Assembly: GCA_964019415.1 (NCBI GenBank)
Contig: OZ025871.1
Location: 10,730,256-10,794,255, forward strand
Direction of reading: 5' to 3'
Source: Ianthella basta
Taxonomy: Eukaryota; Porifera; Demospongiae; Verongiida; Ianthellidae
DNA length: 64,000 bases
This document shows, piece by piece, positions 7,691 to 63,999 of this stretch. Under the pieces are notes generated by a model, which worked only from the letters and a program-made list of their open reading frames with translations, was not told the DNA's origin and ran no database searches. The position numbers and the translations under genes were made by a program. Numbering within the stretch: position 1 is the stretch's first letter; each line of letters begins with the position of its first letter.

Positions 7691-10600
7691 TTACATTTCA
7701 TCTGTGTGAGAGACAGTCTCTGTGTATTCGCCTGCTGAAGTAGGAAGTCCAGGTCTCTGTTCTGTAATATTGACCAGGTTCCCAAGTCTGGCTGCTGGAT
7801 GTTCTAGCAGTGGCTCTTCATTATCCTCTGAATTGATCATCTGCTTCTGGCAACATTTCAACTGATCACACTTAAACCTCACATACACCTTCCTTCCAAA
7901 GATAATAGCAGGATAAAAGAGAGGTAGGTAGATGAGGATCATCCGAACAGATGCATAAAACAGCTTCAATGCAGTGTGTGTGTTACTGTCCACTATCTGC
8001 TCACTCAAGAGAAGGATGAGCACCATGTTACCCAAGATGGCTGTATCCAATGTATTCATCCTGTCTGAGTTGTATGGTCGGAGAATGGCAATGAGCAATA
8101 GCAGTGCCTCAGTGAGGATGAGTTGAATGTGTAGGGCATCTTCTACTCTTGGTATGAACACAGCAGCAGAAAGATGAATGAAACGGTGAAAGAGGTAGAG
8201 TGAAGAGAAGCTCCTGTAACGTTCTTTGTAGCAACCTTGAAAGACATTGACAAAATGGTAGACCCATCTGTCAGTGTAGACGTTGCTGCAGAATGTCTGC
8301 ATCCTCTGTAGCTTCCTCAATGGTGGCACAGCTATGATGAGCCTGCCAAACAACTGAGGCACAATGGGAAGAGTGAGGACAAGAAAGGAAGGCAGAAGGA
8401 CAAACACTAGCAGTATGATAATGGCCGGTATGAAGTAGGCAATGTGCTGAATGGAGCCATAGGGTACAGATCCTTGCCACCACACAACCATCTTCTGTTC
8501 TCCATCCTCTCCTGTGATGGTCTGGCCAACTAGGATGTATGAGGAGCTGACAAGGAAGCGAGTGAAGCCGAGAATGACAAAGGCAGGAAGTGCTCTGTCA
8601 TAAGACATACCGTCAGAGTACTTTGCCTTCCATCGTCTCATCCGCCTGAGGCACTGGTCCACTCGGTGACAGCATATCCACTTCTCAGCAGACCTCTCAA
8701 GAACGACGAGTGTGATGGCCACTATCAGTGGGAAGAGTCCAATGGAGTAGTGCAACAAGAGTGTCTGTAACAGTGTGAGGTGTGAGTGTGGAATGAGACA
8801 GTATGGAGGTAGGAGCACACCAAAGAAGTCCAAGTTCCACACTCCATACAGAAATCGGTATATCTTGACAAATGCAATATGCACTGTTCCTAACTCAGCA
8901 TCACCTCTGATACTGGAGAAAGCAAGGAGTTGTGCAAATAGTAGAAATGAGTTAAAGCTTCCTGACACCAAGTCTACATTGAATAGCATCACAACGAACT
9001 TGACAACCAGCATGGGCACCCACTCACTGAGGATCCAAACAAGGACACCCACATGACTGAGTCCTTCCTGACAACTGGTGCACACTGGTCTAATTCCGTT
9101 AAAGTTCACTGCAATGCTGTTCCCTTCAATGCAATCTCCACAAAGTAGCCCTTTACGATTTGACTTTCCACAAACTACCTCTTCCAGTAGTTGCTTGGAG
9201 TTGTTATCAGGGAGAGTGGACAGTTGTGTCTGACAGTATCCTGGTGGGCAGGGTGCAGTGAAGAACTTTTGACCATCACAGCTGTGTTGGTCATTGGATG
9301 TCAAATAACCAGCCCAGTAGTCTCTCTGCAAGACAGCACCTTTGACATTTGGTTCAATGGCATTATTGCATTCTGCTATTCCACGAATGGTGAGCATCCC
9401 ACATTGACATGTTCCATTGTCATCTGAACCCAAACAAAAAATGTAGCCTGGTGGACAGCACTGGAGCTCTATAGCCATTACCAGAACCAGGTTTTTGTTG
9501 TCTACTGACTGTAGAACTAAGAGAGGCACTGAACCAGATGTGTTGGTTGAATTAGCTTCCAAGAAATGGTTAAATCTTCCATGCTGTGGTGGGATGCCAT
9601 GCAAGATAACTCTAAAATCGGCAGTGTACTTTGAGAAAATGTTCAATTGCACTTTTGCTGTGGGTTCATGAGAAATTATTTGTACGATGAAAGCTGTGTT
9701 GATGACATTTCCAAGTCTGTCATATGCATGTGTGTATGGCAGCAGTTTCTGTAACCCAGGGAAAAACTGGACAGCGACTGGTGATGTGCTGGGAGAGGCA
9801 CCATCAACATGGCTGGGATGCAGCAATGTTTCCCGATCTACTGGTAGGAACTTTTCACTCTTTGAGCAAGTTAGAGGATTCAAATTGATTGATGCACACT
9901 TTATAAATGTTTTTTCTTGATTCTTCTCACTAAATGAGTAAAGTTGATATGCACATCTTGTTGAATTGGAGGTCAGACAGGCATGTTTTGTGAATAACAG
10001 TTGATTCATGACACTGCTATTATAGCAGTTTTGAGGGTCAGTTATATAAAGTGACTGTCCTTCAAACTTTGCAAAGTTGTTTGCAAATACTATGCCTCTT
10101 ATACCCCTTATTGGTCCTTTGTCATTCTGAAGGAAGCACCGATATTTTGATGCTGCACTTAGTGTTGAGTCCACGTACATGGCTCCACCTCGCTGGAAAG
10201 CAAGGTTATCATCTAATTGTAGTTGAGATTTTGACGAGAGTCGAATGTAACTTTCGCCATACAAAGCAACTGCTCCTCCATGTGAAGCAACACAGTAACT
10301 AATTCTTGCAAATGTGTCTGCCTGTAGTGTAATTTCTGAATCAATTGCTTGGAGCCCTTGGGATGTTCCTCCACAGTGACAAGTGAACAAGGAGTGAATG
10401 CGCATTTCCACCGAAATTAAGAGAATCATGCTTGAGTTTGCCTGCACTTCAAGCAATGGATCAATGTGCTTCACATATTCAGCCATGGTGGTATTAGTTA
10501 TATCAGGAAACTCATGATTGATACTTTTGGACAATAGCATTTGTATTAAATTCTCAAAATATTCTTGTAACTGCATTGTGGGCTTAAAGAGGAACTCTTC

Positions 10601-12816
10601 CCTGTGCAAAGTCATTAATCTTGCATTACTCAAGATGACCCCTCTGAAAATGTCCTTCCTGTTTTTTGGCGATGACTGTATACAGATTGCCTCCCCACCT
10701 GCTGCATGGTTGTTCCAGAAGTATGATTCAATCAAATGCACCATGTCTCCACTCTCTCTGATGTGTGGCGAATGTACATAAAGGACTGACAACCCTCCAC
10801 CTACTCCATCTGCAGCATTGTTTTGAAAAATCATCGCCAAAAACATGGAGACAGCATTCTTTGTTTCATCCATGGCCCTGTCAGTGTCAAATTCAATGTT
10901 GATACCTCCACCCATTGTAATGAAGCTATTATGAGAAAGTAGATCATTACTGATTACTGGAACGATGGTGAGCTTCACAGTATTTCTTTTGACAAGATGA
11001 TGGAATCTGATGTACATGCCTCCTCCAGCATATGCTCTGTTGCGACTAACGTTTATTCGGAACATACTCATGATATTACCTCTTGAGAAATCACCAAATA
11101 TGATCATCACTCCACCTCCTAGCTCTGCAGAGTTCTTCTCCACGCTTGATTTTGCCATTGAAATGTTATTGCTTTGTGCATAGGATGAATACATCACTGC
11201 AAACCCTCCTCCATATCCTTGCCAAGAAGCATGATAGTCTGATTTGCTTCTTGCTCTGTTTCCAGTTATATTAGCAGACCCAATTCTAATAATATTGCCA
11301 CTTGAATAATCACCCAGCATTATCAGGATTCCACCCCCCACAACAGCAGAATTGTTGGTGATATCTAGTACATTGAAGATAACCGTATTACTTTCTGAGT
11401 AATTTTGAAACTCTGCAAAAACCGCTCCACCATAATTTGAGACTAAATGTGTGAATGTGCAGTTGTACATCCGTATCCTGTTTCTTCTGCAATGATTAGT
11501 AAACAGGAGATAGGCACCGCCCCCCTGTTGTGATGTGCTGTTCATGACTTGCAGATCTTGTAGGATCACTTCATTAATACTTGTACTGTCTGCAAAGTGC
11601 ACAAATAGGCCTTGCCTGAATGCAATCGCATTTTCAGTGGCAGCAAATGAAAGGTTTCCAAGGTAAATCCAGTTGCATACGGACCGGTCTTTTAGGTAGA
11701 CTGCGACTGCACTTCCACTTGGGGCATAGCTGGTGATCACTCGCACGTCAGTGACATTTATTGTATTTATTGAAGTCCGAGCATCTATCGTAATGGCTGA
11801 GTAGTTTCCAAGTGCACCTTGTGTCATGTTAAGTATATCAAATTGTTTTTTAGCACAATCTGCTAATACATCATCTCTTCTTCTGTTCTGGTAGCGTTTT
11901 TGCCAGCCATCATTCACAATTATTGTATCTAGTATTGTAGTGCTGTAGTGAACATTGCCAAGTAAACGTATCAAAATTCCATAACCCATTACAGGAGCAC
12001 TGTTAAAAACTGTGATGTTGTGCATTGACATTTGACAACCATTTCCCGTACCGTGAACGGTGATCATTATACCAGTGAATGCCATGGATGGCTCATAGGT
12101 GGTATTTGTATCAGTGTTGACCACTAGAATATGATTCATGGATAAAGTGAGGTTGTGTGGTAGTGAGTCAGCCTCCCTTAGAACATCACAATGGATCCCA
12201 ATGCCATGTGTTCCACTGTGCAGTACAGAGATATTGTGCAAAATGATCTCACCATTGTTGGTGGTATGCTCCAATGAAATGCCTGTGCCACGAGGCACAT
12301 TTACACGGATCGTTACGTCATGTATTGTCACATTAGTGCAGTTGGAGAAGTCCAGGGTAGGTTTGATTGTGTCCAGCTGAAGGATGCTTTGTTCGCCAAT
12401 CATTTCAAATGTCAGCTCTCTAACCATTACATTGGCGAGGTCGGAAAATGCAAAATTTGCTCCATTCATGCATTTAATCACGGGTTGACCTATAGCACAG
12501 TCTCCTTCTAACTGTGCACTGAACAAAACGTTCGGGAATGTCTGGCGTGGAGATTCATGGTATTCATAGCTGCCACACCCAACTCTAATGGATGAGCATT
12601 CTTTATAGCACACTGCAGCGACCTGCATGACCTGCTAGGAGGTGGCTGTGCCATCAGTGCACCTACTGGTGTGTGGTGTATGCATTGAGGACCATCCTCT
12701 CCCTTGGTGTCAACCCACATGACTCTGTCACTCCTGACAACTGTCACTAGGCAACACAGCACCATCCACAGAAGGTGATACCTTGACTGCCTGTGATGGA
12801 ACCGAGGCCGTTCCAT
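7691..12816 (-). pseudogene. Gene 1: beta-helix/multi-transmembrane receptor-like protein, frameshifted near the N terminus
   Basis: This is a single-exon coding region of the cluster family. The conserved start ATG is at 12816 (MERPRFHHRQ), followed by a hydrophobic signal peptide and the invariant cap DRVMWVDTKGEDGPQCIHHT. Relative to gene 2, which has 36 bases from the AAT codon to the next TGT, gene 1 has 26, a 10-nt deletion at about 12591-12600. The signal peptide and cap are therefore out of frame with the rest, which stays open for 1645 codons from an internal ATG at 12628. The ectodomain has seven GGG/GGA beta-helix rungs (for example AGGGMYIRF). The neck has CCPPGY at about residue 1056 of that frame, GLLCGDC and CTSCQEG, followed by the membrane core. 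The tail lacks the acidic DEESETETQSEE segment of the other copies and ends SHTDEM. A possible AATAAA polyadenylation signal is at 7467-7472. It is either a young pseudogene or carries an assembly error; without the cap the product would have no signal peptide. Confidence 0.88.
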
Positions 12817-12849
12817 CAGGTGCTCTCCCTTGCTTCACTCAATAGTGCT

Positions 12850-13041
12850 CTGTAGTTAACACATAAAGAACAGCCACTACTTACGTATGTACTACTACAA
12901 AGGTTGTTCCATCAGTTCCTTTTCTGGAGAAACTAGAACTGCTAATCTACATGCAGTCCATCATTCCCCCCACTGTTGAACATGCGCTACATTAGCAACT
13001 GTTTAGCTAGTGTGACTGTTAGATAATCACCATTGACTTAC
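12850..13041 (-). other. Predicted 5' UTR intron of gene 1 (192 nt)
   Basis: On the minus strand the donor reads GATTGA|GTAAGTC and the acceptor reads GTTAACTACAG|AGCACT, with CTAAC-like branch words. The same donor and acceptor contexts recur upstream of gene 2, with an intron of 181 nt. This places one short intron in the leader of an otherwise intronless gene. It is predicted from motif and conservation only. Confidence 0.55.
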
Positions 13042-13154
13042 TCAATCAAGTGAACTGAGGTATCTATGCCAAGGAATTGCTGGTACTTCACAGTAGATAT
13101 GGTTTTAAACACGTTAGACTGTCACTTCTGTGCCAAATATGAGAACAGCCTTCT

Positions 13155-13162
13155 CTTAAATA
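13155..13162 (-). promoter_or_regulatory. TATA-like box of gene 1 (TATTTAAG)
   Basis: The minus strand reads CAAGTATTTAAGAG. The same word occurs at 30637-30644 (gene 2) and 33007-33014 (orphan module), always about 95-120 bp before the predicted donor and about 50-60 bp downstream of the DR1 site. Confidence 0.5.
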
Positions 13163-13212
13163 CTTGCTTGTGTTCAGTTCTTGCATACTCCATGCACTAT
13201 GTAGGCGTGGCA

Positions 13213-13224
13213 TGACCTTTGACC
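13213..13224 (-). promoter_or_regulatory. DR1 nuclear-receptor site upstream of gene 1
   Basis: The minus strand reads GGTCAAAGGTCA, two GGTCA half sites one base apart. That is the DR1 arrangement bound by HNF4- and RXR-type nuclear receptors. It lies about 50 bp upstream of the TATA-like box. The site is found in seven further promoter-like blocks of the window, exactly or with one to three changes. Confidence 0.5.
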
Positions 13225-13700
13225 AACATGCACTTGTCACATGCTAGTATTGCTTTGGGAAAGACCTGTTATGGACATCCACTGGCTCATGCTCTGTTGA
13301 GAAACTGATATCAAATCTTGTTCTGTATTGGTTCAATAACTGTTGGATACAGCAGTCTGTGATTTCAACTTCATACCAGCAAGCTCTACTCAATGTGTTC
13401 AATGTCCTCAGACCTGACCCTATTCATGTACTTGCTGCTGCATACGTAGTGAGCTCAAGTGCTGTAAACAGGCATTCACATGAGAACTCACCTCATGGTA
13501 CAGTGTCATTCATGTGTATGTTTGTGTGTTGCACCGGTATTGTAGTGCTTGTGTACAGAGGGTTCAATCACAGACTGGACTCTTGTGGACAATCACAGAC
13601 TGGACAATGTTATTCAGCAGCTCAACCGTACAGAACAATAGGACAATAATTACGTGTAGTCACATACAGTTAACACATTACACCAACCATAATAGACAGC

Positions 13701-14915
13701 CATGCTAAGTACAGAAACATAGTACTAAAGATAGAACAGTAGAGCAAGAAAGAACCAAATTAAACCTCACATTTCACAACTTGTATAGAAATTTACAATC
13801 TCTAGTGTCGTATCCCTCCGGTTCGCAAAGACTGCTGGACAATTTCACAAACAAGGCCCCAATTCGCCAAGACAGGGTACACAAACTAACTACAATTCTT
13901 CATTATTTAACACAACAGTGCATGCGCAACCATATTCATGCACTTTACAAGAAAATACTAACTATGTAATGCAGTCATGCAAGCACACACTACAATTAGG
14001 AAGGATGTATTTAATAGAACTAGAGTACTGCATTACATATAATATTATATGCTGTGAGCATGACCTGTACATAATTAACATGTACATGTCACCTGCAGTT
14101 CTGTTTGGGAAAGGCCATTTGTGGACATCTTCCTCCTCCCTCTTTGTTGTGAATTGATAATCAAATCTCCTTGTTCTGTATTACTTGAATTAATATCTGT
14201 TGGATTCAGCATGCAGTCTATGACTTCAACTTTATACATGCAAGACCTATTCAATGTATTCATGATCAGTGTCCTCCAGTCTGCCCCTGTTTTCATGTAC
14301 TTACAGCTGCATGGATAGTGAGTGCTCTGTAACGTAAACATCAACCTCATTGTACATTGTCATTATGTGTATGTATGCTGGGCATTAACATGATGCACAG
14401 TGAGCAAAATACGTACCATCATACTGTTCCATGTCTACAGTAGTTCCCATCATAAACAGAGAGAAAATAAGGTTGCCATGGACAGCTCACACCACCACGC
14501 ATGCAATTGTTAGAGTAAGAAAGACTTGTTTGGGATATGCATAGTTCACTCTTCCTAATTTTGTTGAACGGCTATTTATACTGTTTTCATTCCCCTGAAT
14601 ACATGATTGTTTACCTCTATAATTATTCCATTGTATTATAGCAACCACCAGCATTACTAGACTGATAGTATGCAGCATTCATGCTTATGCTGGATTGCAT
14701 GTCTCCTTGCATGAACAATTGTATCCAAAAACAATCAACTGTCTCTAACATGAAACTTTTAATGGATGATTAACAATACTACAGTTTAAGGTATGTTATT
14801 TAGCTCCATATGTTCTGAATTACACAGTGCTCTATGGACATTGGTACATCCAAAGGCATAACACTCCAAGCCTATAATGTTTTATGAAGTAATTAAGTGA
14901 CATGTAACAGAGATG
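13701..14915. repeat. Intergenic duplicated flank
   Basis: There is no coding region. Bases 14040-14410 match 59470-59840 (for example GTGGACATC, TTGTTCTGTATTACTTGAATTAATA), and 14420-14915 match the 3' flanks of genes 2, 3 and 5 (25080-25400, 40830-41460, 59860-60380). This is the standard downstream flank of the gene family, here belonging to the relic that follows. Confidence 0.7.
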
Positions 14916-15017
14916 TACTGCCATGTCAAAGACAACTGATTCTGTATTATGATTTTCTAGAAGAACCTCTTCACTCTGAGTCTCAGTCTCTGATTCCTCA
15001 TCTGATGAAGTGGGGGC
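14916..15017 (-). pseudogene. C-terminal relic of a sixth receptor-family copy
   Basis: Thirty-four codons read APTSSDEESETETQSEEVLL and then ENHNTESVVFDMAV, matching the C-terminal tails of genes 3 and 5 (APTSSDEESETETQSEETLL, then ENQNTESVVVDLAV). The expected stop codon after the last valine has become CAT, so the frame runs on. Upstream in gene sense the homology stops abruptly at 15017 and is replaced by a second copy of the 3' flank. No other part of this gene remains nearby. It is a truncated gene end left by a deletion or unequal exchange. Confidence 0.85.
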
Positions 15018-15024
15018 AGGGTGC

Positions 15025-15236
15025 AAAATACACATTATTCCATGTCTACAGTAGTTCCCATCATAAACAAAGAGAAACTAAGGTTGCCATAGACCGCTCA
15101 CACCACCATGCATGCATTTCAGTGAGTAAGTTAGACTTATTTGGGATACGCATATTGACTCTTTCTAAATTCGTTGAGAGACTATTTATACTGTTTTTGA
15201 ATACATTATTGTTTACCATTATATTTCATTGTATTA
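15025..15236. repeat. Second copy of the 3' flank segment 14420-14640
   Basis: Both copies run from CATGTCTACAGTAGTTCCCA through GCTCACACCACCA, GACTTRTTTGGGATA and ACTATTTATACTGTTTT to TTCATTGTATTA or close variants. The second copy stops at GTATTA, exactly where the palindromic array begins. The other side of this flank resumes at about 24463 (TATAGTACAATG), so the array is an insertion in the flank of gene 2. Confidence 0.8.
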
Positions 15237-24401: not shown

Positions 24402-24462
24402 TATATTGTAACTTGCACTGTATTTACTTTAGATTAGTGGTGTATATTGTAACTTGCACTGT

Positions 24463-30347: not shown

Positions 30348-30367
30348 CACTCTGTGACTGTAGTGCT

Positions 30368-30548
30368 CTGTTATTGACACAGGCCAGGGGAACAAATGCT
30401 AATTAATTAATAGTACAACAACACTTCAATCGGTCCATGTTCCAAAGAATTAGCCACCCCTACCCATACTTGCCATTGAAAATGTATTACTGCACCAACG
30501 TTAACTATAATGCTCGTATTACTGTTAGACAATCCAATATTTACTTAC
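30368..30548 (-). other. Predicted 5' UTR intron of gene 2 (181 nt)
   Basis: The donor is GATTGA|GTAAGTAA and the acceptor GTCAATAACAG|AGCACTA on the minus strand. Both are in the same sequence context as in gene 1. The open frame in front of the start ATG runs back across this acceptor without an ATG, supporting the start chosen. Confidence 0.55.
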
Positions 30549-37213: not shown

Positions 37214-37411
37214 ATCTAGCCCTACAAACATTGGACATCTGGTGCCCCAGTGTACTTCACCAGGGAATTTTGCATCCCCTACAAACATTAGGCATCTGGT
37301 GCTCGAGTGATCTTCAAATAAGAATATGGCATCCCCTGCAAACATTGGGCATCTGGTGCCCCAGTGTACTTCACCGGGGAATATTGCATCCCCTACAATC
37401 ATTGGACATTT
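37214..37411. repeat. Minisatellite of about 56 bp, left part
   Basis: Units contain GGCATCTGGTGCCCCAGTG, then TTCACCGGGGAAT or TTCAAATAAGAATA, then GCATCCCCTACAAACATT. The array continues at 38430 after a 1-kb insertion. Confidence 0.85.
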
Positions 37412-38429: not shown

Positions 38430-39143
38430 ATTTGGTGCCCCAGCGAATTTCACCAGGGAATTTGGCATCCCCTGCAAACATTTGGCATCTGGTGCTCGAG
38501 TGATCTTCAAATAAGAATACGGCATCCCCTATAGACATTGGACATCATGTGCCATAGTGAATTCAAAATTCACTGAGGAATATAGCATCCCCTGCAAACA
38601 ATGGGCATCTGCTGCTCCAGTGACTTCACCAAGGAATATTGCATTCCTCGCAAACATTAGGCATCTGGTGCCCCTGTGAACTTCACTGGGGAATATTGCA
38701 TCCCCTGCAAAATTTGGGCATCTGGTACCCCAGTGATCTTCAAATAAGAATAATTGCATCCATTAAAGCATTGGGCAACTGGTGCCCCAGTGTACTTCAC
38801 CGGGGATTATTGCATCCCCTACAAAATGTGGGCATCTGGTGCCCAGTCATCTTCAAATAAAATATTGCATCCATTAAAACATTGGGCAACTGGTGCCCCA
38901 GTGTACTTCACCGGGGAATATTGCATCCCCTACAAAATTTGGGCAACTGGTGCCCCAGTGATCTTCAAAAAAATATTGCATCCCCTACAAAATTTGGGCA
39001 TCTGGTGCCCCAGTGATCTTCAACTAAAAAAATTGCATCCCCTACAAAATGTGGGCATCTGGTGCACAGTCATCTTCAAAAAAATATTGCCTTCATTAAA
39101 ACATTGGGCAACTGGGGCCCCAGTGTACTTCAGACAGAACTGA
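38430..39143. repeat. Minisatellite of about 56 bp, right part
   Basis: About thirteen further variant units lie here. Two unit types alternate, one ending TACTTCACCGGGGAATATT and the other ATCTTCAAATAAGAATA or A-rich variants. The last units merge into the inverted terminal sequence of the Penelope-like element, so the array probably grew from that terminus. Confidence 0.85.
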
Positions 39144-46524: not shown

Positions 46525-49489
46525 CTTCAGCCCCTACTTGAAGAATTGTCCTCTATGAATGGCCGACTGCAACACAGCACTGGTACTAGTATTGTTGGTA
46601 GTTGTGTCCAGTTGAAATCTGAAATATAAATAGTACAGAAGATTATGTAGTTTACGACTAATTGTTCTGGCAAATGCCAATCTAGAAAATGCTCTTAGAC
46701 ACCACAGTCACTAATCAACTGCATATAATGAAGATTTTGGATCTTTGTGGGCAGTTAGTTAACTTACAGTGTTCATGAGGTAGCAAAAGGAAGTGCTTGC
46801 TTTATGTATGGCTGCTACGTAGCTTCTTGATCTGACAGAAATACTTTTGGAGTCAAGTCAACCTGTGTCCAGTTTCCTCAGTGTAGAGATGCTCTGGTTC
46901 ATCTCAGATTCTGTGGTAAGAACCAGCTTTATAGTAAACTCTAGCAGCCCATTGATGAGAAACAACATAATATTGAAGGCAAACAGTGAAAGAGAAAAGG
47001 CACATATGAAACAAGTTTCTGTGTAGGAGAGCCATGTATTCTTCTGGTATACGTGCAATTATACAGTTGCCCATTCTCTGTTTAGTTGTCTGTGCTTCAC
47101 AAACTGTGTGTCGTGGTGTGTAGCCAATTATCAAACATGTGCCACCTGCTGAAATTCATTTTGCTACCTCAATACATACTTCATTCAACTCCCATTCGTT
47201 CAGTGTACACGTCTAGGTGTTCAGTGCGAAGAGTGGAGTTGAAACACCACACAATACTTGTGTGACTACCGTGTGAATATGTATGCTATTGTGTCATTTA
47301 ATAGCTATAATGATTGTGGTGCATAAAATTATTGTGTGCATGTGTGTGTTTGCATGTTTGTATATAAGTAAGGTTGGACTAAAAACTCTGCCATGTGGTG
47401 CTCTCCCATGGCAGGCTGAGTGGAGACTACACATTGCTCTTGGCTTTGTTAGCATGCCTCTTTGTAGAATCTGGAGAACATCTTTGTGAAGACAGCTGAA
47501 TTATGCAGTATTATTGTGCAATGCATTATTCCCATGTTTGGCTGAAATGTAAAGAAATTTTCTAAAATATGCTTATGCCAAGTCAAATACACTCCTCAAC
47601 CAATGTACACTGCAACTGCTACTCACAGTGTAACATGGAAATTAAGTAAAAACAATTTCATTTGAAGGTGAAATTATAACCTAGCATAGGAAAATAAAGT
47701 AACACACAATTCCTTGAATACATGAATTGCTGCTTGTAAACACATTCAGCTTCAGATCATTTAAGGAAAGCAATAATATACTGCCAAAAAGTCTAATAAA
47801 CACACCACACTGGTTAGGGCTTTCAGTGTCATGTTGGTTGGGGTTTTGGGATTCTAAAACATGAGAAACTGCGCACAGGTACCATACAGGTAGAGGTTTG
47901 ATGTGTATATCACATTAGCCAATGAGAACAATACCATAACTACACCTTGCCCTTTATCTATAATAATTAATGCAAACTAGCTGAGATTAGAATTATGTAG
48001 TTGACTCAATGTCTATGACACCACATACAAACTGTTATCAGAGAAAGGAAGTATATGGTCGACTGTATCGTGAAGACATGATTGAGTTGAGGTACTGGCT
48101 ATGTAAACATAATATATGCATTGCGCTTTGATAGTGTATATGTGCTTGTTGGAATTGTGTGCTGCTTGGGGTAGTCAGTTTGATTCATTGAGTCAAGGTG
48201 GTTTTGAATTTTAGTCCGTTGCCAGGGTGTGATATGTAAGTATAATATTATTTGAATATTATTGTACCGTTTCAATAAATATGTGATGTTCTGTAATTCC
48301 AGTATTCCATTTTTCTGCTATTCTAAATTTTCGCCTATGATGCCAAGCCTGAACCAATTCAACACCTCACCCAGTGTGCACACGGTTAGGTGTTTACACT
48401 GCATGTCATTGATGTGCACAGTACAATACAATGTTTACTAAACAGTGCAATTTGAAAGCGCAAAATGAAGGTCTGGTAAAACAATAATTATTATTGTTGT
48501 GTCATACACAATTGTGTAAACACTTACATGGTTTAATGTAAGTTTTAGGTTGGCCATTTCATGAGCATTCAAATCCCAAAATGACCAATGAACACACCTC
48601 ACTGGTTGTGTCATGTAGTAGTCGCATGGTATGGCCATTGGCCCAAACGCAACCTAAAATCCATTGCATGTGTGAACTAGCTCAGTTTATACGATAATCA
48701 TTTACCGTCTTTCTCATAAACGTTATGTTGGATGTAAAAATTTGCAGATTGATTAAAGGACCTCATGCACACCATTAACAAGAGTTTGTGGTATGTAGCT
48801 ATGTGGTATGCGTGACCACAGTGTATAGTCATGATTGCAGATCATGCAGTCAGTACATCTTATGACATAACGAAATGTTAAAATAAAACTATGACTTATA
48901 GCATAATAATGTGGACAGGTCACTTCCATGATTTGCACAAAGCTGCGTGAGTACAATGGACCTGCCTGTCTTGCTGAATTGTCCATGCATTCAATACTTC
49001 AATTAAACTGAACGTTAAAAGTATGTAAAGAGGGACATCGCCTATACAATCTGATCTTTCCCTTCAATTTACATGCATATAGCAGGAGATTTGAACTGCA
49101 ATTAAAATTAGCTCATCTAAAATCTGATCCATCCTCACAATGAGAGAAATATCAAGAGATTCATCTAGGTACAATTGCCACCATAATTTTTGACGTGGAT
49201 GCCTAAAATTGCTCACATCATCTAGAAGTACAGAAGGTAAACTGTGAAATTGTCCTATGTATATATACAAGTATTTCACTGGGAGCCTTTCTGGGTGTGT
49301 TTCAGTTCTGCATACACTACCATATTGCAGTATAAAACAACCATCAACTTCCCAGTGCTGTCTGACTGTAAGTAATAGTTAAATGCTGACCAAGAGGTGT
49401 CTCTGAGATTTAGAGCACGAGGCTCGAGGGTGCGAAGAGTGTTATAGATCCCAAATGATTGGGTAAGGAGGTGGCAGCGAATCAGTTTA
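46525..49489. other. Intergenic, no supported gene
   Basis: This stretch is mostly featureless. A possible acceptor for gene 3 (TATTTATATTTCAG, minus strand, near 46630) is the only gene signal. Bases 48430-48620 resemble 1515-1700. On the minus strand 49064-49489 gives two open stretches that read like protein (KLWWQLYLDESLDISLI; DTSWSAFNYYL), the first preceded by a TTCTAG acceptor-like site near 49230. Neither has an ATG or a recognised domain. Confidence 0.3.
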
Positions 49490-50379: not shown

Positions 50380-53300
50380 TCATACTGCTAAGTCAACAAC
50401 AACTGCATCAGTATTCTGATTTTCTAGAACTATTTCTTCACTCTGAGTTTCAGTCTCTGATTCCTCATCTGATGAAGTGGGGACTCCAGCACGAAGTTCT
50501 GTTATTCGCACAAAGTTGCCCAGTCCTTCTGTTGGATCAGCTAAAAGCGGTTCTTCATCATCCTCTTCATTTCCTTTCTTCTTGCAACAGCATCTCAACT
50601 TGGGACATCTCATATACACCTTTCTTCCAAACAGTATGCCAGGATACAGGAGAGGAAGGTAAATGAGGATCATCCTTATAGAGGCAAAGAATTGCTTCGC
50701 TCCTATTTGACTGTCTGCAACGGATATTTGCAGACTCAAGACAAGAATGAGGGACATGTTCCCCAGTATGGCTGTATCCAGATTGTTGAGTTGGGCAATG
50801 GTGTATGGCTGGAATACAACAATTACCAACAGAAGTACCAATGTAAGAATAAGCTGAATCCGCAAGGCATCTCCACTATTGGGTATGAAGACAGCAGCAA
50901 GAAGCTGAATGATGCGATGAAAGAGGTAGAGTGAAGAGAAGCTTCTGTAACGTTCCTTGTAGCAACCTTGAAAGACATTGACAAAGTGGTAGATCCATCT
51001 GTCAGTGTAGACATTGCTGCAGAATGTCTGCATCCTCTGTAGCTTCCTCAATGGTGGCACAGCTATGATGAGCCTTCCAAATAACTGAGGCACAATGGGA
51101 AGAGTGAGGAGCAGGAAGGCTGGCAGAAGGACAAACACTAGCAGTATGATAATGGCCGGTATGAAGTAGGCAATGTGTTGAATGGAGCCATAGGGCACAG
51201 ATCCCTGCCACCACACAACCATCCTCTCTTCCCCATCCTCTCCTGTGATGGTCTGGTTGACAAGGATGTATGAGGAGCTGACAAGGAAGCGAGTGAAGCC
51301 GAGAATGACAAAGGCAGGAAGTGCTCTGTCATAAGACATGCCATCAGAGTACTTTGCCTTCCATCGTCTCATCCGTCTGAGGCACTGGTCCACTCGGTGA
51401 CAGCATATCCACTTCTCTGCAGATCTCTCAAGAACAATGAGTGTGATGGCCACTATCAGTGGGAAGAGTCCAATGGAGTAGTGTAACAAGAGTGTCTGTA
51501 ACAGCGTGAGGTGTGAGTGTGGAATGAGACAATATGGAGGTAGGAGCACTCCAAAGAAGTCCAAGTTCCACACACCATACAGAAATCGATATATCTTGAC
51601 AAATGCAATATGCACTGTTCCTAACTCAGCATCACCTCTGATACTGGAGAAGGCAAGCAGTTGTGCAAACAGAAGGAAAGAGTTGAATCTTCCTGACACC
51701 AAGTCTACGTTGAACAGCATCACAATGAACATGACAACCAGCATGGGCACCCACTCACTGACGATCCAGACAAGAAGTCCCACTGTGCTGAGGCCATCCT
51801 GACAACTGGTGCACACTGGTCTCATTCCATTGAAGTTCACTGCAATGCTACTTCCTTCAAGGCAGTCTCCACAAAGAAGGCCTTTATGTTTTGATCCTCT
51901 ACACACTGCATTTTCCAAAAGTTGTTTGGAGTTGTTCTTAGGAAGAGTTCGCTGCTGTGTTTGACAGTACCCTGGGGGGCAAAGTGCACTGAAGAATTTC
52001 TGTCCATCACAACTATGTTTGTCGTTGGATGGCAGATACCCAGCCCAGTAGTCTTCCTGCAATACAGCATCAATATTGTTTGGGTCACTTTCATTACATT
52101 CAACTATTCCCAGCACTCTAGGCATGCCACAATGACAGGAACCTTTATCTTTTGAGCTGTTTTGAAGGGTGTAGCCTGGAGGACAGCATTGAAGCTCTAC
52201 AAACATGGCTACTTGAAGGTATTTATTGTCCACTGACTGAAGAACTAGCAGAGGCATAGATTCAGATGTGTTGCTTGCATTAATCCTGAAGAACATGCCA
52301 TGTTGCAATGGGATACCATGCACAATGACTGTGAAATCCGCAGTGTACTTTGAGAAAGGGTTCAGTTGAACTGGTGCTGTTGCTTCTTCTGAAATAATCT
52401 GTGCAGTAAAAACTGTGTTGATGACATTTCCAAGCCTGTCATATGCATGCGCAAACGGTAGTTGTTTCTGTATCCCAGGGATGAACTGAACAGTAATTGT
52501 TGTAAGGTGATCTGAGGCAATGTCAATATGATTTGCCTGAAACATGATCTCTTGGTGAACTGGAAAGAATTCCTCACTCACTGAGCAATTATAGTTTAAA
52601 AATGGTTGGTCATAGCACTTTCTGGACTTTGTTTTACATTCTTCCTCATCAAAGGAGTGCAGTTGGTAAACACATATTGTTGAATCAGCCATGGACTGTA
52701 TGAAACAACTGAACTCTATATCTGCAATTATTATCTGATTCATGACATTGTTTAGGCAGCTTTGAGTGTTACTAATAAAAACTGACTTCCCCTCGTGGTT
52801 TGCCATGTTTTCCACCAGTATTATACCATTATATAATTCAGAATTACTATTTACCCTTCCTTGGTCAGTCTGAAGGAAGCAATGGGAATTTGAAGATGCA
52901 CTATGAGTCGAGTCTACATAAAGGGCTCCTCCACGCTGGAAGGCAAAGTTATGAATTAGGAGCATTTGTGCCAAATCTGATGATGGAAACCGTATGTAGC
53001 TTTCACCGTACAGAGCAACTCCTCCTCCATGTGTAGCTACACAGTAAAGGACTGTTACACCAGTATTTGGCTGCAAAGTCAGTTCTGAGTCAGTTGCCAA
53101 AATTCCTTGTGAAACTCCTCCACAGAAACAAGCAAACATGTCTTCAATTCTTAGCTGTATTGATACTAGGAGAACCATACTTGTGTTTGACATCTGTACT
53201 TGATGGATTGGGTTAATCTGCTTCATGAGCTCAGGCATATATTCAGTAACTAGTTCTTCAGTTAAATCATGCATGTAGCGCCCAAAGGCATCTGGGTCGT

Positions 53301-55584
53301 AATATCTAAGTCGCACTACATTAATTGTAGTAGCATAGCGAAAGGACATGAACATAATGTTTTTTAGTGTGATGTCTCTGAACAACGCCTTTTGGTACTT
53401 TGGTGATGACTGCAGAGAAATAGCCTGCCCATTTGCTGCATGATTGTTCATGAAAATTGCTGTACCCAAATACAATAGGTCTCCACTCTCTCGAATATGT
53501 GGTGAATGCACATACAAAAGTGATAAGCCACCACCAATTCCATCTTTTGCATCATTGTCTGTAAAAATAATTATGTTTATTTTAAGCACATTACTAGTCG
53601 TGTTAATAGCTTCGTTAGTATCAAACACAATATTCATACCTCCACCCATTGCGTAGGAGCTGCCCTGTAGAAGTAACTCATTGTTTCCAATCCAAGTGTA
53701 ATCTGTTATATAAACAGTATTTCCCTTGGTTGAGTAATGAAATTTGATTTGCATACCTCCTCCAGCATATGCTTTGTTGGATAAAATAGATGCATTGTAT
53801 GAAGTGATGACATTATCTCTGGAGAACTCGCCCATTAGTATCCCAAGTCCACCCCCAAATTCTGCTGTATTGTTACGGGCTGTCAGCCGTAAGAGGGAGA
53901 CAGTATTATTATTTGCGTAGTCTGCGAACAGTGCAGCCATCCCACCACCATACCCAGCAGCTACCCGGTTCTTGATCACCCATCCAGCAGTATGACTCCC
54001 ATTGGTAAATGCAATGTTTCCGACAATGTTTGTAGAGTCTGCCTGAATGAAGTTTCTGCTTGAGTAATGCTGCATTAATACCAGAAATCCACCCCCCAAC
54101 TGTGCAATACTGTTGGAAATACTCACTGATTTTAAATGGATCTCATTTTTCTCTGAATAGCCTTGAAATATTGCACAAATACCACCACCATACTGCAAAG
54201 CAATATGACCTGTGAATGTGCTGTTGGACAGCCATACTCTATTTTGTAAGCAGTGATCAGTGAAGTGCAGGAATGCTCCTCCTCCATACTCTGCTGTACT
54301 GTTAGCAACTTGTACATCCACTGCCATTACCTTGTTATCACTAGCTCTATCAACAAATCGCAAGTCTAGACTTTCCCAGCTAGCAAATGTGTTTCCAGTG
54401 GCTGCAAGAGAAATGTTTTTAAGGTGAATAACATTTGATCTTGACTGACCAATAAAGTAGAAGGCAGCTGCACTTCCACTTGGAGCATACCTTGCAGTCA
54501 CTTTTACATCAGTAACATTTATTCTGCTCTTGGACGTCCAAACTTCCACCAAGATGGCCCAATAAAATTGTGAGTCATTTCTCGTCAGGGTTAGTATATC
54601 AACTTGTCGCCTGGCACACTCTGCCAATACCTCATCTTTACTCCTGCTGTGGTAGCGTTCATCCCACCCATCATATATATTCATTCCAACCAGATTTACT
54701 GTGCTGTTATGTGCATCATCATGGATCTTTACCTTTATTCCAAAACCTTGTACAGGGGCACTATTCAATACTGTAATGTTGTGCATTGACATTTGACAAC
54801 CATTTCTTGTTCCTTGAATGGTAATCCTTATGCCAAAAAATGCCATGGTTGTCTCGTAGGTGGTATTTGTATTAGTGTTGGCCACTAGTATGTGATTCAT
54901 GGATATAGTGAGGTTGTCCGATTGTGAGGCAGTCTTGCTTAGAATATCACACATAATTCCAATGCCATGTGTGCCACCATGTAGTACATATATATTATCC
55001 AGAACAATCTCCCCATTGCTGGCCGTGTGTTTCAATGAAATGCCTGTACCAATAAGTACAATAACACGAATTGTTATATTCTGTATTCTCACATTTGTAC
55101 AGTTGAAAATACCCAAGGCAGGTTTGGTCCTGTCTGAGTGAAGAATGCTTTGTTTGTAGTTCATTTCAAATGCCAACTTTCTAACCATTATGTTTAAAAG
55201 GTTGTAAAACACAAAATTTGCTCCATTCATGAATCCAATTGTAGGTTGACCAAATGCACATTCTCCTTCCAATTGTAAATCCTGAGTGCCTTTTTGGAAT
55301 GTCTTGTATGAAATGTCATATTCATGAGTACCACACATAACTTTAATGCATGTGCTGTTCAAAGTATTTTGCAGAGCATACTGCAGTGACCTGCACGACC
55401 TGCTAGGAGGTGGCTGTGCCATCAGTGCACCTACCGGTGTGTGGTGTATGCATTGAGGACCATCCTCTCCCTTGGTGTCAACCCACATGACTCTGTCACT
55501 CCTGACAACTGTCACTAGGCAACACAGCACCGTCCACAGTAGGAAACAACCTGACAGCCTGTGAAGGACTTCAGGCTGCCCCAT
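50380..55584 (-). CDS. Gene 4: intact beta-helix/multi-transmembrane receptor-like protein (1734 aa)
   Basis: This is the longest family member in the window, with an uninterrupted frame. The ATG at 55584 (MGQPEVLHRL) aligns with the other genes; the frame extends upstream only to a TTG. Signal peptide and cap are as in gene 2. The ectodomain belongs to the same subtype as gene 1 (cap-proximal NGANFVFYNLLNIMVRKLAF) and has more GGG rungs than gene 2 (YGGGICAIF, LGGGFLVLM, YGGGMAALF, FGGGLGILM, AGGGMQIKF, MGGGMNIVF, IGGGLSLLY), which explains the extra length. CCPPGY is at about residue 1132, and the membrane core at about 1267-1648 is nearly identical to the others. The acidic tail is of the gene 2 type (FVRITELRAGVPTSSDEE). 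It probably sits at the cell surface with the beta-helix outside. The ligand and signalling route are unknown. Confidence 0.93.
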   Translation of the reverse strand: MGQPEVLHRLSGCFLLWTVLCCLVTVVRSDRVMWVDTKGEDGPQCIHHTPVGALMAQPPPSRSCRSLQYALQNTLNSTCIKVMCGTHEYDISYKTFQKGTQDLQLEGECAFGQPTIGFMNGANFVFYNLLNIMVRKLAFEMNYKQSILHSDRTKPALGIFNCTNVRIQNITIRVIVLIGTGISLKHTASNGEIVLDNIYVLHGGTHGIGIMCDILSKTASQSDNLTISMNHILVANTNTNTTYETTMAFFGIRITIQGTRNGCQMSMHNITVLNSAPVQGFGIKVKIHDDAHNSTVNLVGMNIYDGWDERYHSRSKDEVLAECARRQVDILTLTRNDSQFYWAILVEVWTSKSRINVTDVKVTARYAPSGSAAAFYFIGQSRSNVIHLKNISLAATGNTFASWESLDLRFVDRASDNKVMAVDVQVANSTAEYGGGAFLHFTDHCLQNRVWLSNSTFTGHIALQYGGGICAIFQGYSEKNEIHLKSVSISNSIAQLGGGFLVLMQHYSSRNFIQADSTNIVGNIAFTNGSHTAGWVIKNRVAAGYGGGMAALFADYANNNTVSLLRLTARNNTAEFGGGLGILMGEFSRDNVITSYNASILSNKAYAGGGMQIKFHYSTKGNTVYITDYTWIGNNELLLQGSSYAMGGGMNIVFDTNEAINTTSNVLKINIIIFTDNDAKDGIGGGLSLLYVHSPHIRESGDLLYLGTAIFMNNHAANGQAISLQSSPKYQKALFRDITLKNIMFMSFRYATTINVVRLRYYDPDAFGRYMHDLTEELVTEYMPELMKQINPIHQVQMSNTSMVLLVSIQLRIEDMFACFCGGVSQGILATDSELTLQPNTGVTVLYCVATHGGGVALYGESYIRFPSSDLAQMLLIHNFAFQRGGALYVDSTHSASSNSHCFLQTDQGRVNSNSELYNGIILVENMANHEGKSVFISNTQSCLNNVMNQIIIADIEFSCFIQSMADSTICVYQLHSFDEEECKTKSRKCYDQPFLNYNCSVSEEFFPVHQEIMFQANHIDIASDHLTTITVQFIPGIQKQLPFAHAYDRLGNVINTVFTAQIISEEATAPVQLNPFSKYTADFTVIVHGIPLQHGMFFRINASNTSESMPLLVLQSVDNKYLQVAMFVELQCCPPGYTLQNSSKDKGSCHCGMPRVLGIVECNESDPNNIDAVLQEDYWAGYLPSNDKHSCDGQKFFSALCPPGYCQTQQRTLPKNNSKQLLENAVCRGSKHKGLLCGDCLEGSSIAVNFNGMRPVCTSCQDGLSTVGLLVWIVSEWVPMLVVMFIVMLFNVDLVSGRFNSFLLFAQLLAFSSIRGDAELGTVHIAFVKIYRFLYGVWNLDFFGVLLPPYCLIPHSHLTLLQTLLLHYSIGLFPLIVAITLIVLERSAEKWICCHRVDQCLRRMRRWKAKYSDGMSYDRALPAFVILGFTRFLVSSSYILVNQTITGEDGEERMVVWWQGSVPYGSIQHIAYFIPAIIILLVFVLLPAFLLLTLPIVPQLFGRLIIAVPPLRKLQRMQTFCSNVYTDRWIYHFVNVFQGCYKERYRSFSSLYLFHRIIQLLAAVFIPNSGDALRIQLILTLVLLLVIVVFQPYTIAQLNNLDTAILGNMSLILVLSLQISVADSQIGAKQFFASIRMILIYLPLLYPGILFGRKVYMRCPKLRCCCKKKGNEEDDEEPLLADPTEGLGNFVRITELRAGVPTSSDEESETETQSEEIVLENQNTDAVVVDLAV

Positions 55585-56339
55585 CTTTAACCCCAGCCCA
55601 CAGTTACGGAATGCAGTAAGCAAGTACTTGATTGAAGTTGCTAGCAGTGTATTTACTGTTTCTTATATGACGAATCCCTCTGATCTGGAAATGGAGGTAA
55701 CCAGCAGACATATTATGATACGTAATGCGTGATTCAGAATGTTAATTATGACATTCTCACTAGTTTTGCTTACATTGTATGCCTCCTTTGCTCAAGTGTG
55801 CATGGGACTTCCTTGAACAGTGTATATTCACAAAGGTACTTTGTTTCTTGCCCTGAGAACTGAATCTTTTGTCAACTTGCCAATAGATTCTTCCTCTTTC
55901 GAATGCCTCCTAGCTGTTGGAACATATGTATAGCATTTCATACTAGCAACTCTGTTGCAGCAACACCACATATGGAATGATAATATTATTGTACATACCA
56001 ACTCAACTCTATCAACAGCTAAACTAAATTACTGATACAACAAACTTGAAACTACACAAGTATGGATCTGTGATGCGTTGACACTATACTGCTGACAATA
56101 ACAGATTGAGTACTCTTGTTATCTATAATTGTCAAGGTACTTACACTGCATGGCATTTATTTCTAAAGTGAGCTTTATGAGTCAGGTGTGTATCTATGCA
56201 AGATGTAATGATTTAGTCACAAGTCATGACACAATGAATCAGTTTGGGCTGGAACAATCCCAGGATTTACCATGCATCCTATTTGTATATTTTAGGTCAC
56301 CGAGTCATCCTTAGTATATTGACAGTGGCCTAGCTACCA
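55585..56339. other. Leader region of gene 4, no gene seen
   Basis: If the donor at 57043 is used, this is intron. The acceptor is uncertain; the bases before the ATG (GGGGTTAAAG) are a weak AG candidate. Confidence 0.3.
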
Positions 56340-59092: not shown

Positions 59093-59159
<67 letters not shown>

Positions 59160-60381: not shown

Positions 60382-63300
60382 TCATATGGCCAAGTCAACG
60401 ACAACTGATTCTGTATTCTGATTTTCTAGAAGTGTTTCTTCACTCTGAGTCTCAATCTCTGATTCCTCGTCTGATGAAGTCGGTGCTCCAGCACGAAGTT
60501 CTGTTATTTGAATAAAATTACCAAGTCCTTCGGTTGGATCCACTATCAGTGGTTCTACATCATCTTCATTTTCCTCCTTCTTCTGACAGCATCTCAATTT
60601 GGCACATTTCACATACACCTTCCTTCCACATAGAATAGCAGGATACAAAAGAGGCAGAAAAATGAAGATCATCCTAACAGAAGCAAAGAATTGCTTTGCC
60701 TGAAGTGGAGTCTCTGAAATATTCATTAACAGACTCAGGACAAGAATGAGGGACATGTTCCCAAGAACAGCAGTATCAAGGATGTTGAGGTGACTAACAG
60801 TGTATGGTTGGAAGATGACAATTAGTTGCAACAATAGTAATGTAAGGATGAGTTGGATGCAGAGTGCAACTTCAGCTCTTGGTATGAAGACAGCAGCTAG
60901 AAGATGAATAATGCGGTAAAATAGATAGAGTGAAGAGAAGCTCCTGTAATGTTCTTTGTAGCAACCTTGAAAGACATTGACAAAGTGGTAGATCCATCTG
61001 TCAGTGTAGACATTACTGCAGAATGTCTGCATCCTCTGTAGCTTCCTCAATGGTGGCACAGCTATGATGAGCCTGCCAAACAACTGAGGCACAATGGGAA
61101 GAGTGAGGAGCAGGAAGGCTGGCAGAAGGACAAACACTAGCAGTATGATAATGGCTGGTATGACGTAGGCAATGTGTTGAATGGAGCCATAGGGCACAGA
61201 TCCCTGCCACCACACAACCATCCTCTCTTCCCCATCCTCTCCTGTGATGGTCTGGTTGACTAGGATGTAGGAAGAGCTGACAAGGAAGCGAGTGAAGCCG
61301 AGAATGACAAAGGCAGGAAGTGCTCTGTCATAAGACATGCCATCAGAGTACTTTGCCTTCCATCGTCTCATCCGTCTGAGGCACTGGTCCACTCGGTGAC
61401 AGCATATCCACTTCTCTGCAGACCTCTCAAGAACAATGAGTGTGATGGCCACTATCAGTGGGAAGAGTCCAATGGAGTAGTGCAACAAGAGTGTCTGTAG
61501 CAGTGTGAGGTGTGAGTGTGGAATGAGACAGTATGGAGGTAGGAGCACACCAAAGAAGTCAAAGTTCCACACTCCATACAGAAATCGGTATATCTTGACA
61601 AATGCAATATGCACTGGTCCTAACTCAGCATCACCTCTGATACTGGAGAAGGCAAGGAGTTGTGCAAACAGAAGGAAAGAGTTGAATCTTCCTGACACCA
61701 AGTCCATGTTGAACAGCATCACAATGAACATGACAACCAGCATGGGCACCCACTCACTGAGGATCCAAACCAGAAGACCCACTGTGCTGAGGCCATCCTG
61801 ACAACTGGTGCACACTGGTCTCATTCCATTGAAATTGATTGCAGTACTGTACCCTTCAAGGCAGTCTCCACAGAGGAGGCCTTTGCGTTTTGACCCACCA
61901 CAAACCACTTCTTCCAGTAGATGCTTGGAATTGTTACGAGGAAGAGTACTTGATTGTTTCTGACAGTATCCTGGTGGGCAAGGTGCACTGTAGAGCTTCT
62001 GTCCATCACAGCTATGTTGATCATTGGATGGCCAATATCCAGCCCAATAGTAACCCTGCAGCACAGCACCAATGTTGTTTGGATCTGTTTCATTGCACTC
62101 TCCTATTCCCAGCACAGTAGCCATTCCACAGTGACATGTTCCCATGTCTCCAGACCCTATTCGGTATATGTAGCCAGGTGGACAGCACTGGAGTTCTATG
62201 TTCATTATTAGGAGTAAGTTAAAGTTGTCAACAGACTGAAGTACAAGTTGTGGAGTTGCAATTCCAGTTGCATTGCTGCCATTGATGGTGGAGTTAGTAA
62301 TGCCATGCTTCAGAGGAATGCCATGCAGAATAACTGTAAAATCGGTAGTGTATTTTGAGAAAGGATTTAGTTGAACATCAGTTGTGGGCTTCGGGGTGTT
62401 TATTTGAACAGTGAATACTGTGTTGATGGCATTTCCAAAATTGTCATATGCATGTCTGTGGGGAAGCTGTCTTGGTTTGCCAGGAATGAACTGAATCCTT
62501 GGTGGGTTGGCCAAGTTTACTTTGGTGCCATCCACATGGGTAGGACGGGAAGCTATAGGATAGAATTCCGCTAGGGATGTATTACCAGGTTCAGTGCAGG
62601 CTGAATAGATGGTTGAGTCATTTGCTTTGTTGCACAATCCCAATAAACTACTGGTTGCAATTCCCAAAATATAATAGTTTGAAGTATGTGCTAATAGTCC
62701 AATATTACTACTTTTTGTTAAATTTGCATTGAATATTTTGGTGTCAAAACAGCTTTCAGATTCACTCATGTAAATAGACTGTCCTTCATGTTTTGCAGAG
62801 TTGTTCATGAATCTAATGTAAGAGAAGCCTGCCACCTTTCCTTGTTCATGCTGAAAGAAGCAGCGAACATGAGGAACTGCCTGTTGTGGTGAATGTACAT
62901 AGAGGGCACCTCCTCGCTGGAATGCATAGTTATTTGCCAAAAACAATTCTGAATTCGTAGAAAAACGTATGTAACTTTCACCATGCAAAGCAATTGCTCC
63001 TCCATGTGAAGCGACACAAAAGCGAAAAAGGTTAAACGACTCTGGTTGCAAAATGATCTCTGAATCAACTGCTAGAAGTCCTTGTGATGCAGCTCCACAT
63101 GTGAAGTTGCCTTCAAGCCTAATTTGCACTGATACTAGAAACACCATGCTTGTGCTAGTCTGTACTTGAAAAAATGGTCTGAACTGCCTTTTCAATTCTA
63201 GGATAACTTTCTTCTGTAGGGCAGCTATTTTCAAGGGTACCAACTCTACATCTTCTGCTCTGATTAGAGTGCTGGAATAGTTCCAATTTCTAATTACATG

Positions 63301-63999
63301 ATCTTTGAGATAGGTGTATGGCTGGAGGCTGTGGAAGTGTGGTTTGTTCGCTATTGCACAAGTAGTTTGTATTGAAGTAATTCCACGAAATAATATTTTT
63401 CTGGACTGGGGAGATGCCTGCATGGCAAATGCATTCCCATAGTGTGCCTGGTTGTTGAGGAAGATTGTACGATTCATGTGAATTGTGTCTCCACTCTCTG
63501 CAGTGTTCCGAGAATGTTCATAAAATACTGATAGCCCACCACCTACTCCATCTTTTGCAGTGTTAGCTAAGAATACCGTAACATTCATCATAACTTCGTT
63601 CTTTGTTGCAATTGTAGCTCTATTCTGAAAATGAATACAGCTGCCTCCGCCCATCATACTGATGCTATCAATTCGAGTAGGAATTATTGTGTTATTTGCA
63701 ATATAAACTCCATCTATGATCACTATATTCCTTTCTGAAAAGTCAGTAAATTTGATGAACATTCCACCTCCAGCATATGCTTTGTTGCCACCAATAAATG
63801 CAAGGCCTGTGATAAATGAGTTGCCTTTGGAAAAATCTCTCATTAAAGCTACTAATCCACCACCATGCATTGCGGTATTGTTCTCCACAACTGCTCCGTA
63901 CAAGAGGAATGTATTGCCCTGCGCATGATCCCGAAACACCACAGAAAGACTTCCACCAATCAAAGCATGATGATTTGCAATTGTAACTCTTTCCAACAT
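60382..63999 (-). CDS. Gene 5: beta-helix/multi-transmembrane receptor-like protein, N terminus outside the window
   Basis: The frame is open from the right edge to its stop at 60382, 1205 codons. It begins inside the ectodomain, with rungs such as HGGGLVALM, AGGGMFIKF, MGGGSCIHF and VGGGLSVFY. The neck carries CCPPGY, CHCGMATVLGIGECN, CPPGYCQ, GLLCGDC and CTSCQDG. The membrane core differs from gene 2 at few positions (for example VWNFDFF for MWNLDFF, AYVIPA for AYFIPA). The tail QITELRAGAPTSSDEE resembles gene 3. No stop or frame change is seen in the visible part, so it is probably functional. The missing portion would be the signal peptide, cap and first rungs, to be found at about 64.0-65.5 kb. 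Confidence 0.92.
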   Translation of the reverse strand: MLERVTIANHHALIGGSLSVVFRDHAQGNTFLLYGAVVENNTAMHGGGLVALMRDFSKGNSFITGLAFIGGNKAYAGGGMFIKFTDFSERNIVIIDGVYIANNTIIPTRIDSISMMGGGSCIHFQNRATIATKNEVMMNVTVFLANTAKDGVGGGLSVFYEHSRNTAESGDTIHMNRTIFLNNQAHYGNAFAMQASPQSRKILFRGITSIQTTCAIANKPHFHSLQPYTYLKDHVIRNWNYSSTLIRAEDVELVPLKIAALQKKVILELKRQFRPFFQVQTSTSMVFLVSVQIRLEGNFTCGAASQGLLAVDSEIILQPESFNLFRFCVASHGGAIALHGESYIRFSTNSELFLANNYAFQRGGALYVHSPQQAVPHVRCFFQHEQGKVAGFSYIRFMNNSAKHEGQSIYMSESESCFDTKIFNANLTKSSNIGLLAHTSNYYILGIATSSLLGLCNKANDSTIYSACTEPGNTSLAEFYPIASRPTHVDGTKVNLANPPRIQFIPGKPRQLPHRHAYDNFGNAINTVFTVQINTPKPTTDVQLNPFSKYTTDFTVILHGIPLKHGITNSTINGSNATGIATPQLVLQSVDNFNLLLIMNIELQCCPPGYIYRIGSGDMGTCHCGMATVLGIGECNETDPNNIGAVLQGYYWAGYWPSNDQHSCDGQKLYSAPCPPGYCQKQSSTLPRNNSKHLLEEVVCGGSKRKGLLCGDCLEGYSTAINFNGMRPVCTSCQDGLSTVGLLVWILSEWVPMLVVMFIVMLFNMDLVSGRFNSFLLFAQLLAFSSIRGDAELGPVHIAFVKIYRFLYGVWNFDFFGVLLPPYCLIPHSHLTLLQTLLLHYSIGLFPLIVAITLIVLERSAEKWICCHRVDQCLRRMRRWKAKYSDGMSYDRALPAFVILGFTRFLVSSSYILVNQTITGEDGEERMVVWWQGSVPYGSIQHIAYVIPAIIILLVFVLLPAFLLLTLPIVPQLFGRLIIAVPPLRKLQRMQTFCSNVYTDRWIYHFVNVFQGCYKEHYRSFSSLYLFYRIIHLLAAVFIPRAEVALCIQLILTLLLLQLIVIFQPYTVSHLNILDTAVLGNMSLILVLSLLMNISETPLQAKQFFASVRMIFIFLPLLYPAILCGRKVYVKCAKLRCCQKKEENEDDVEPLIVDPTEGLGNFIQITELRAGAPTSSDEESEIETQSEETLLENQNTESVVVDLAI

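Follow-up and report, generated by a model that had tools for sequence, protein, structure and literature searches.

What does a sponge genome encode where giant intronless genes of a single family stand one behind the other on the same strand? The stretch analysed here, the window, comprises 64,000 nucleotides of the demosponge Ianthella basta (contig OZ025871.1, C4, positions 10,730,256-10,794,255), whose genome amounts to 209,087,449 bases in 96 contigs. All seven stop-to-stop frames of at least 250 amino acids (aa) in the window lie on the minus strand and belong to one family, and open reading frame (ORF) calls and translations confirm the five large minus-strand paralogues with intron-free coding regions that a preliminary description of the window had reported. 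The genome contains at least 100 intronless gene copies of this kind, and the window is part of their largest array. In our judgement there is about an even chance that the genes encode plasma-membrane recognition receptors, in which a conserved base carries diverging, exchangeable outer parts; we favour this reading because these two properties, together with the many copies, their decay and their duplication, resemble those of recognition repertoires.

The array far exceeds the window. Genome searches with genes 4 and 5 (Table 1) located 31 places between 10.691 and 11.085 Mb of C4, all on the minus strand, and single matches on contigs C6, C11 and C13. Sequence is in hand, whole or in part, for 23 of the 31 C4 copies (21 fetched loci, gene 3 and gene 5); the bodies of five are disrupted, by a stop in L005, L008 and L020 and by a frame break in L007 (gene 1), the fifth being gene 3. 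A 53-kb block carrying several copies is present as a tandem duplicate, with 35 differences in 6606 bases between L012 and L013 and 3 in 6570 between L015 and L016. Further arrays of long frames, mostly of 1200-1500 aa, are found on C13, C14, C15, C18, C19, C22 and C23, and at least 131 distinct long-frame places on 13 contigs were tallied, of which a whole-protein query accounts for 98 and a single domain for the other 33. These counts are lower bounds, with sequences read for part of the places, and the tally omits contig C86, most short frames, many single-domain rows and an apparently unrelated gene on C3 (L048) that had been fetched as a beta-helix match and was excluded. More beta-helix matches in shorter frames occur on C18 (0.46-0.56 Mb and 1.08-1.42 Mb) and C2 (3.30-3.34 Mb); these are perhaps genes with introns, and membership of the superfamily is not implied.

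As had been described, the proteins of genes 2 and 4 have a signal-like N-terminus and a cap (DRVMWVDTKGED...) that hardly varies; GG-rich rungs follow, often at intervals of 31-32 residues, then a cysteine neck and hydrophobic segments, and the tail is acidic. The proposed beta-helix ectodomain is supported by the structure model of gene 4 and by VIA-align, whereas Foldseek alone, run with the ectodomain model, returned a best E of 3.7e-3 and no match below 0.001. The model consists of stacked rungs of short parallel strands, as in the right-handed parallel beta-helix superfamily, and supports a predicted beta-helix of about 640 residues as the ectodomain fold of the family; it resembles pertactin (Foldseek) as well as Vag8 and PfbA (VIA-align). 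For the C-terminal part the earlier figure of about ten helices has to be revised: there are eleven hydropathy peaks, which we read as nine helices. Most invariant positions of the ectodomain fall on the cap or on structural G, N, A and C; no catalytic motif was seen among them by eye, no test on coordinates having been made. Neither the eleven proteins scanned with Pfam (six paralogues and the five of the window) nor the six scanned with NCBIfam gave an enzyme family at cut-off, and in NCBIfam no family of any kind reached it. Both results speak against membrane-tethered sugar-acting enzymes of the polysaccharide lyase or GH28-like type, an interpretation that we regard as highly improbable.

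Conservation is distributed very unevenly along the protein. Comparison of seventeen copies (136 pairs) gives a median identity of 37-65% for the rungs, insert and linker; the neck reaches 77%, transmembrane helices 1-5 (TM1-5) 97.7% and TM6-9 again 77%. In the same order, the medians of synonymous divergence (dS) are 0.69-1.35, 0.59, 0.144 and 0.85. Low divergence also marks the cap over its first 40 codons (proportion of synonymous differences, pS, 0.038). This set excludes the five disrupted copies, the exact or near repeats L003, L012, L014 and L016-L018, and the partial copies L028-L030 and gene 5; its member L011 comes from C86 and corresponds to L012 on C4, the two differing by 1 base in 6606. 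The analyses of the cap start and of ectodomain variability further exclude the near-duplicates L002 and L013. The most variable stretches of the ectodomain are the insert and the linker preceding the spacer. The rapid evolution of the ectodomain anticipated from the window, with intact copies standing beside broken and deleted ones, is supported and can be put in numbers. Such variation may also reflect weak constraint on the surface loops of adhesion or matrix-anchoring glycoproteins, whose beta-helix would serve as a spacer or glycan anchor and whose membrane domain would be an anchor. The fold resemblance to the adhesins pertactin, Vag8 and PfbA is in keeping with this, as are the N-glycosylation sequons, 20-26 per ectodomain in the five from the array that were counted, and the overall purifying selection; however, a multi-helix base as conserved as TM1-5 (dN/dS 0.087) exceeds the needs of an anchor, and we consider this explanation unlikely.

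The history of TM1-5 is distinct from that of the outer parts. The Spearman correlation with ectodomain divergence (pS) is 0.20 for TM1-5, 0.24 for TM6-9 and 0.41 for the cap, as against 0.79-0.88 for the insert-linker, spacer and neck, and TM1-5 pS lies above helix pS in five of the 136 pairs. L001 and L002 have nearly identical rungs (pS 0.003) and a TM1-5 pS of 0.102; synonymous constraint alone was ruled out as the cause of the TM1-5 dip because this pair differs at 19 of 186 synonymous sites in TM1-5 and at 1 of about 394 in the helix. Judged from these sequence comparisons, gene conversion explains the TM1-5 pattern, for which neither a reduced mutation rate nor synonymous constraint is sufficient by itself. 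The GC content at fourfold sites is 0.495 in TM1-5 and 0.231-0.333 in the five modules upstream, and lends weak support to biased conversion, since a high value (0.452) is also seen in the non-homogenised TM6-9, and the cap, although homogenised, stays at 0.282. The nearest neighbours of TM6-9 and of the rungs clearly disagree in seven of the seventeen copies (L004, L006, L009, L015, L022, L025 and L027), and we therefore read the genes as mosaics.

None of this need involve a repertoire function if a duplication-prone family is simply undergoing neutral birth and death, with conversion owing to the similarity of the copies. Pseudogenes, a relic copy (see below) and the 53-kb duplication would be expected, conversion requires no selection, and the raised fourfold-site GC of TM1-5 is what biased conversion gives. 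Yet 18 of the 23 C4 copies read whole or in part are without a disrupted body, protein constraint is strong in the neck and transmembrane parts, and the neck and membrane part have been retained in members from other places in the genome, all of which render a purely neutral account quite unlikely.

A number of observations weigh against the recognition-receptor interpretation. Positive selection was not shown, whole-gene pN/pS being 0.14-0.48 in eight pairs, and no difference in variability was seen between modelled strands and other positions (mean entropy 1.32 vs 1.27, p 0.54). The TM1-5 dip is not general, as the arrays on C14 and C19 agree with it in part only: three C14 copies have a TM1-5 pS of 0.03-0.06 against 0.18-0.29 in the helix, with TM6-9 low as well (0.00-0.05), so that their entire membrane part is low, and a C19 pair has a weak dip (TM1-5 0.152; neck 0.184; spacer, helix, linker and TM6-9 0.22-0.36). 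The disagreement between nearest neighbours was read off raw distances, without support values. The membrane bundle of the preliminary description agrees with hydropathy and charge, but its structure model was unusable and was discarded (predicted local distance difference test, pLDDT, 31.6). Lastly, contig C86 (93,200 bases) and the C4 interval 10.861-10.954 Mb are collinear across eight copies, and a comparison of five locus pairs gave 3 differences in 34,632 bases; a possible second haplotype would therefore be nearly identical. C86 may be the other haplotype, in which case there is no hyperpolymorphism, or an assembly duplicate, in which case it says nothing. The same comparison bears on alloreceptors mediating self/non-self recognition between individuals, a role to which fast ectodomain evolution and copy turnover would be suited. 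If C86 is a haplotype, the near identity of the five pairs makes this role less likely, and no Pfam domain of the aggregation factors (Calx-beta and others) was present in the proteins scanned; we deem alloreceptors very unlikely. One apparent case of positive selection, helix B of L023-L024 with 18 non-synonymous and 1 synonymous differences, is not claimed because in neither related pair, L023-L026 or L024-L026, does this segment exceed neutrality.

If the genes do encode recognition receptors, the beta-helix with its hypervariable insert and linker would form the outer part, seated on a beta-rich spacer and the cysteine-rich neck; the neck would join a membrane domain of about nine helices that ends in a cytosolic acidic tail. 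The beta-helix would contact the ligand, and a signal would pass via the neck to the common membrane domain; that the ligands are probably glycans or microbial surface polymers is a guess by analogy with the fold. Copies would arise by tandem and 53-kb segmental duplication and then decay, those that are kept being mosaics; gene conversion would keep TM1-5 uniform, together with the beginning of the cap, and the ectodomains would diverge and swap partners, as would TM6-9. A bolder version, which we advance tentatively and with considerable doubt, is an undescribed animal repertoire of at least 100 genes that uses beta-helices instead of immunoglobulin domains or leucine-rich repeats. Its variable ectodomain cassettes would sit between the homogenised 5' cap and TM1-5, an arrangement promoting exchange, and ectodomain and C-terminal modules would be reshuffled to read microbial or symbiont glycans.

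Full length is evident for two of the five paralogues, genes 2 and 4. Gene 1 is not intact, as its leader and cap (about 12598-12831) sit in a different frame from its long ORF; the genome match spanning gene 3 runs through two stops, and gene 5 is open at the window edge. An open frame of 3063 in the genome search was rejected, since it arises from N beyond this edge; the output also contained an open frame of 3364. The relic copy stands at the DNA level: in a blastn comparison of the window with itself, 13038-13705 and 14049-15017 match the flanks of other copies, including about 100 bp of 3' coding end. A coding body was not detected by tblastn at about 13.0-15.0 kb, between genes 1 and 2.

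Table 1. Gene copies of the window and modules of gene 4 (window coordinates)
Feature	Position	Strand	Remarks
Gene 1	7691..12831	-	Broken copy; 1647-aa ORF 7691-12634, leader and cap upstream in another frame
Gene 2	25407..30398	-	Complete open frame, 1663 aa stop to stop
Gene 3	41465..46533	-	Broken, three ORFs
Gene 4	50380..55662	-	Complete open frame, 1760 aa stop to stop
Gene 5	60382..63999	-	C-terminal 1205 aa; open at window edge, N upstream
Relic	13038..15017	- (inferred from matching flanks)	Flanks of a deleted copy, with about 100 bp from the end of its coding sequence
Gene 4, right-handed parallel beta-helix (predicted)	53347..55275	-	Residues 75-717 of the structure model
Gene 4, hypervariable insert	53218..53370	-	Modelled as helices with low confidence, pLDDT <50 over most
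Gene 4, hypervariable linker	52588..52725	-	Precedes the beta-rich spacer; from variability analysis
Gene 4, cysteine neck	51802..52188	-	Counterpart in paralogue L046 exceeds the DUF7630 cut-off
Gene 4, TM1-5	50998..51777	-	Homogenised among paralogues
Gene 4, TM6-9	50587..50997	-	Divergent; nearest neighbours differ from those of the ectodomain in several copies

Elsewhere the window contains no tRNA and no Rfam family at the gathering score. A complex block of direct and inverted repeats at 15236-23692, with units of about 1.1-1.5 kb and tandem parts of 75 and 129 bp, perhaps derives from mobile elements. A 65-bp tandem repeat occurs ten times at 2507-3165, an imperfect palindrome of about 333 bp (91% match to its own reverse complement) lies at 5979-6311, and a tandem array of a 57/111-bp unit occupies 38433-39132, with a similar unit at 37220-37409. 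Outside C4, a tandem cluster of Wnt-like exons was seen on C16 (1.99-2.03 Mb); Wnt exons appeared in none of 14 control genomes and, Wnt being specific to animals, point to an animal genome.

The wider superfamily was approached through six more translated paralogues, two of which (P0011 and P0012) run open through the 5' end of the fetched stretch, and a seventh, L046. When the neck and membrane parts of paralogues and window copies are aligned (ten rows), 22 columns are invariant, and cysteines of the neck account for eleven of these. Paralogues of the C14/C15 kind share 25-29% identity with gene 4, those of a second kind 18-21%, and profile comparison gave probabilities of 100 and 99.5. Pfam's Beta_helix (PF13229) passes its cut-off in P0008 and P0009; P0011 and P0012 score below that value, and P0010, P0013 and the five window proteins give no match. 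The window proteins reach the cut-off of no Pfam family, DUF7630 included. DUF7630 (PF24633) exceeds its cut-off at 27 places, all on C13 and C23 (26 directly and one with its neighbours), among them L046; P0013 alone scores 17.1 bits against a cut-off of 27, and neck matches were found in none of the 14 control genomes.

The likeness of the rungs to those of chlamydial Pmp proteins, noted earlier, holds as a resemblance, but no Pmp model reached its cut-off with Pfam in the eleven proteins or with NCBIfam in the six (TIGR01376 scored 14.2 bits in P0008, cut-off 15, and gave nothing in P0006 and P0002). Pfam likewise yielded no C-terminal autotransporter barrel, hydropathy indicating hydrophobic helices instead. 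Models of G-protein-coupled receptors (GPCRs), GAIN, GPS and 7TM had no match in the eleven proteins; for a seven-helix fold there are only the low-confidence membrane model and the nine helices read from hydropathy. Solved structures searched by sequence gave nothing below E 0.5, and across Pfam, NCBIfam and these structures no characterised housekeeping family matched the proteins scanned, in line with the preliminary description. Searches of viral and prokaryote collections with the C-terminal alignment produced 14 and 79 pattern matches, respectively, but no confirmed relative, and hence no homologue in another species. No paper on the family was among the literature matches listed; most subscription journals lie outside this coverage and absence from print is not claimed. 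Such proteins presumably exist as uncharacterised entries in other sponge and cnidarian databases.

If they are receptors, these proteins would rank with the larger repertoires of surface receptors in an early-branching animal; no library searched has a name for their architecture as a whole. A homogenised base with mosaic ectodomains offers a testable model for constant output with changing binding parts, and the array supplies specific genes with which to approach the still open question of how a sponge distinguishes bacteria, symbionts and other sponges.

Each element by itself, be it beta-helix, cysteine neck or expanded receptor family, is known; their combination is without a name in the Pfam, NCBIfam and solved-structure searches made, and we know of no right-handed parallel beta-helix protein with such a helical membrane domain attached. 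Vag8, pertactin, phage tailspikes, NosD and GH28 proteins are secreted, bacterial-surface, periplasmic or phage proteins, and the Foldseek E-values linking the present ectodomain to them are weak. The chlamydial Pmp proteins share the GG(A/G) and N-x-A rungs and constitute a large variable surface family, but their C-terminus is a beta-barrel, whereas here hydropathy points to hydrophobic helices. DUF7630 proteins, for which no function is known to us, resemble the C13 and C23 members in the neck, while the window proteins are without a match. Adhesion and other GPCRs likewise place a large ectodomain on a membrane bundle with a cytosolic tail, in contrast to which about nine helices are suggested here. 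Sponge aggregation factors, with Calx-beta and other domains, are a variable surface family as well; their domains and those of the SRCR expansions differ from the present ones, and none was found by Pfam in the proteins scanned. The SRCR expansions, too, are reported to form a variable surface family in sponges (PMC10855680).
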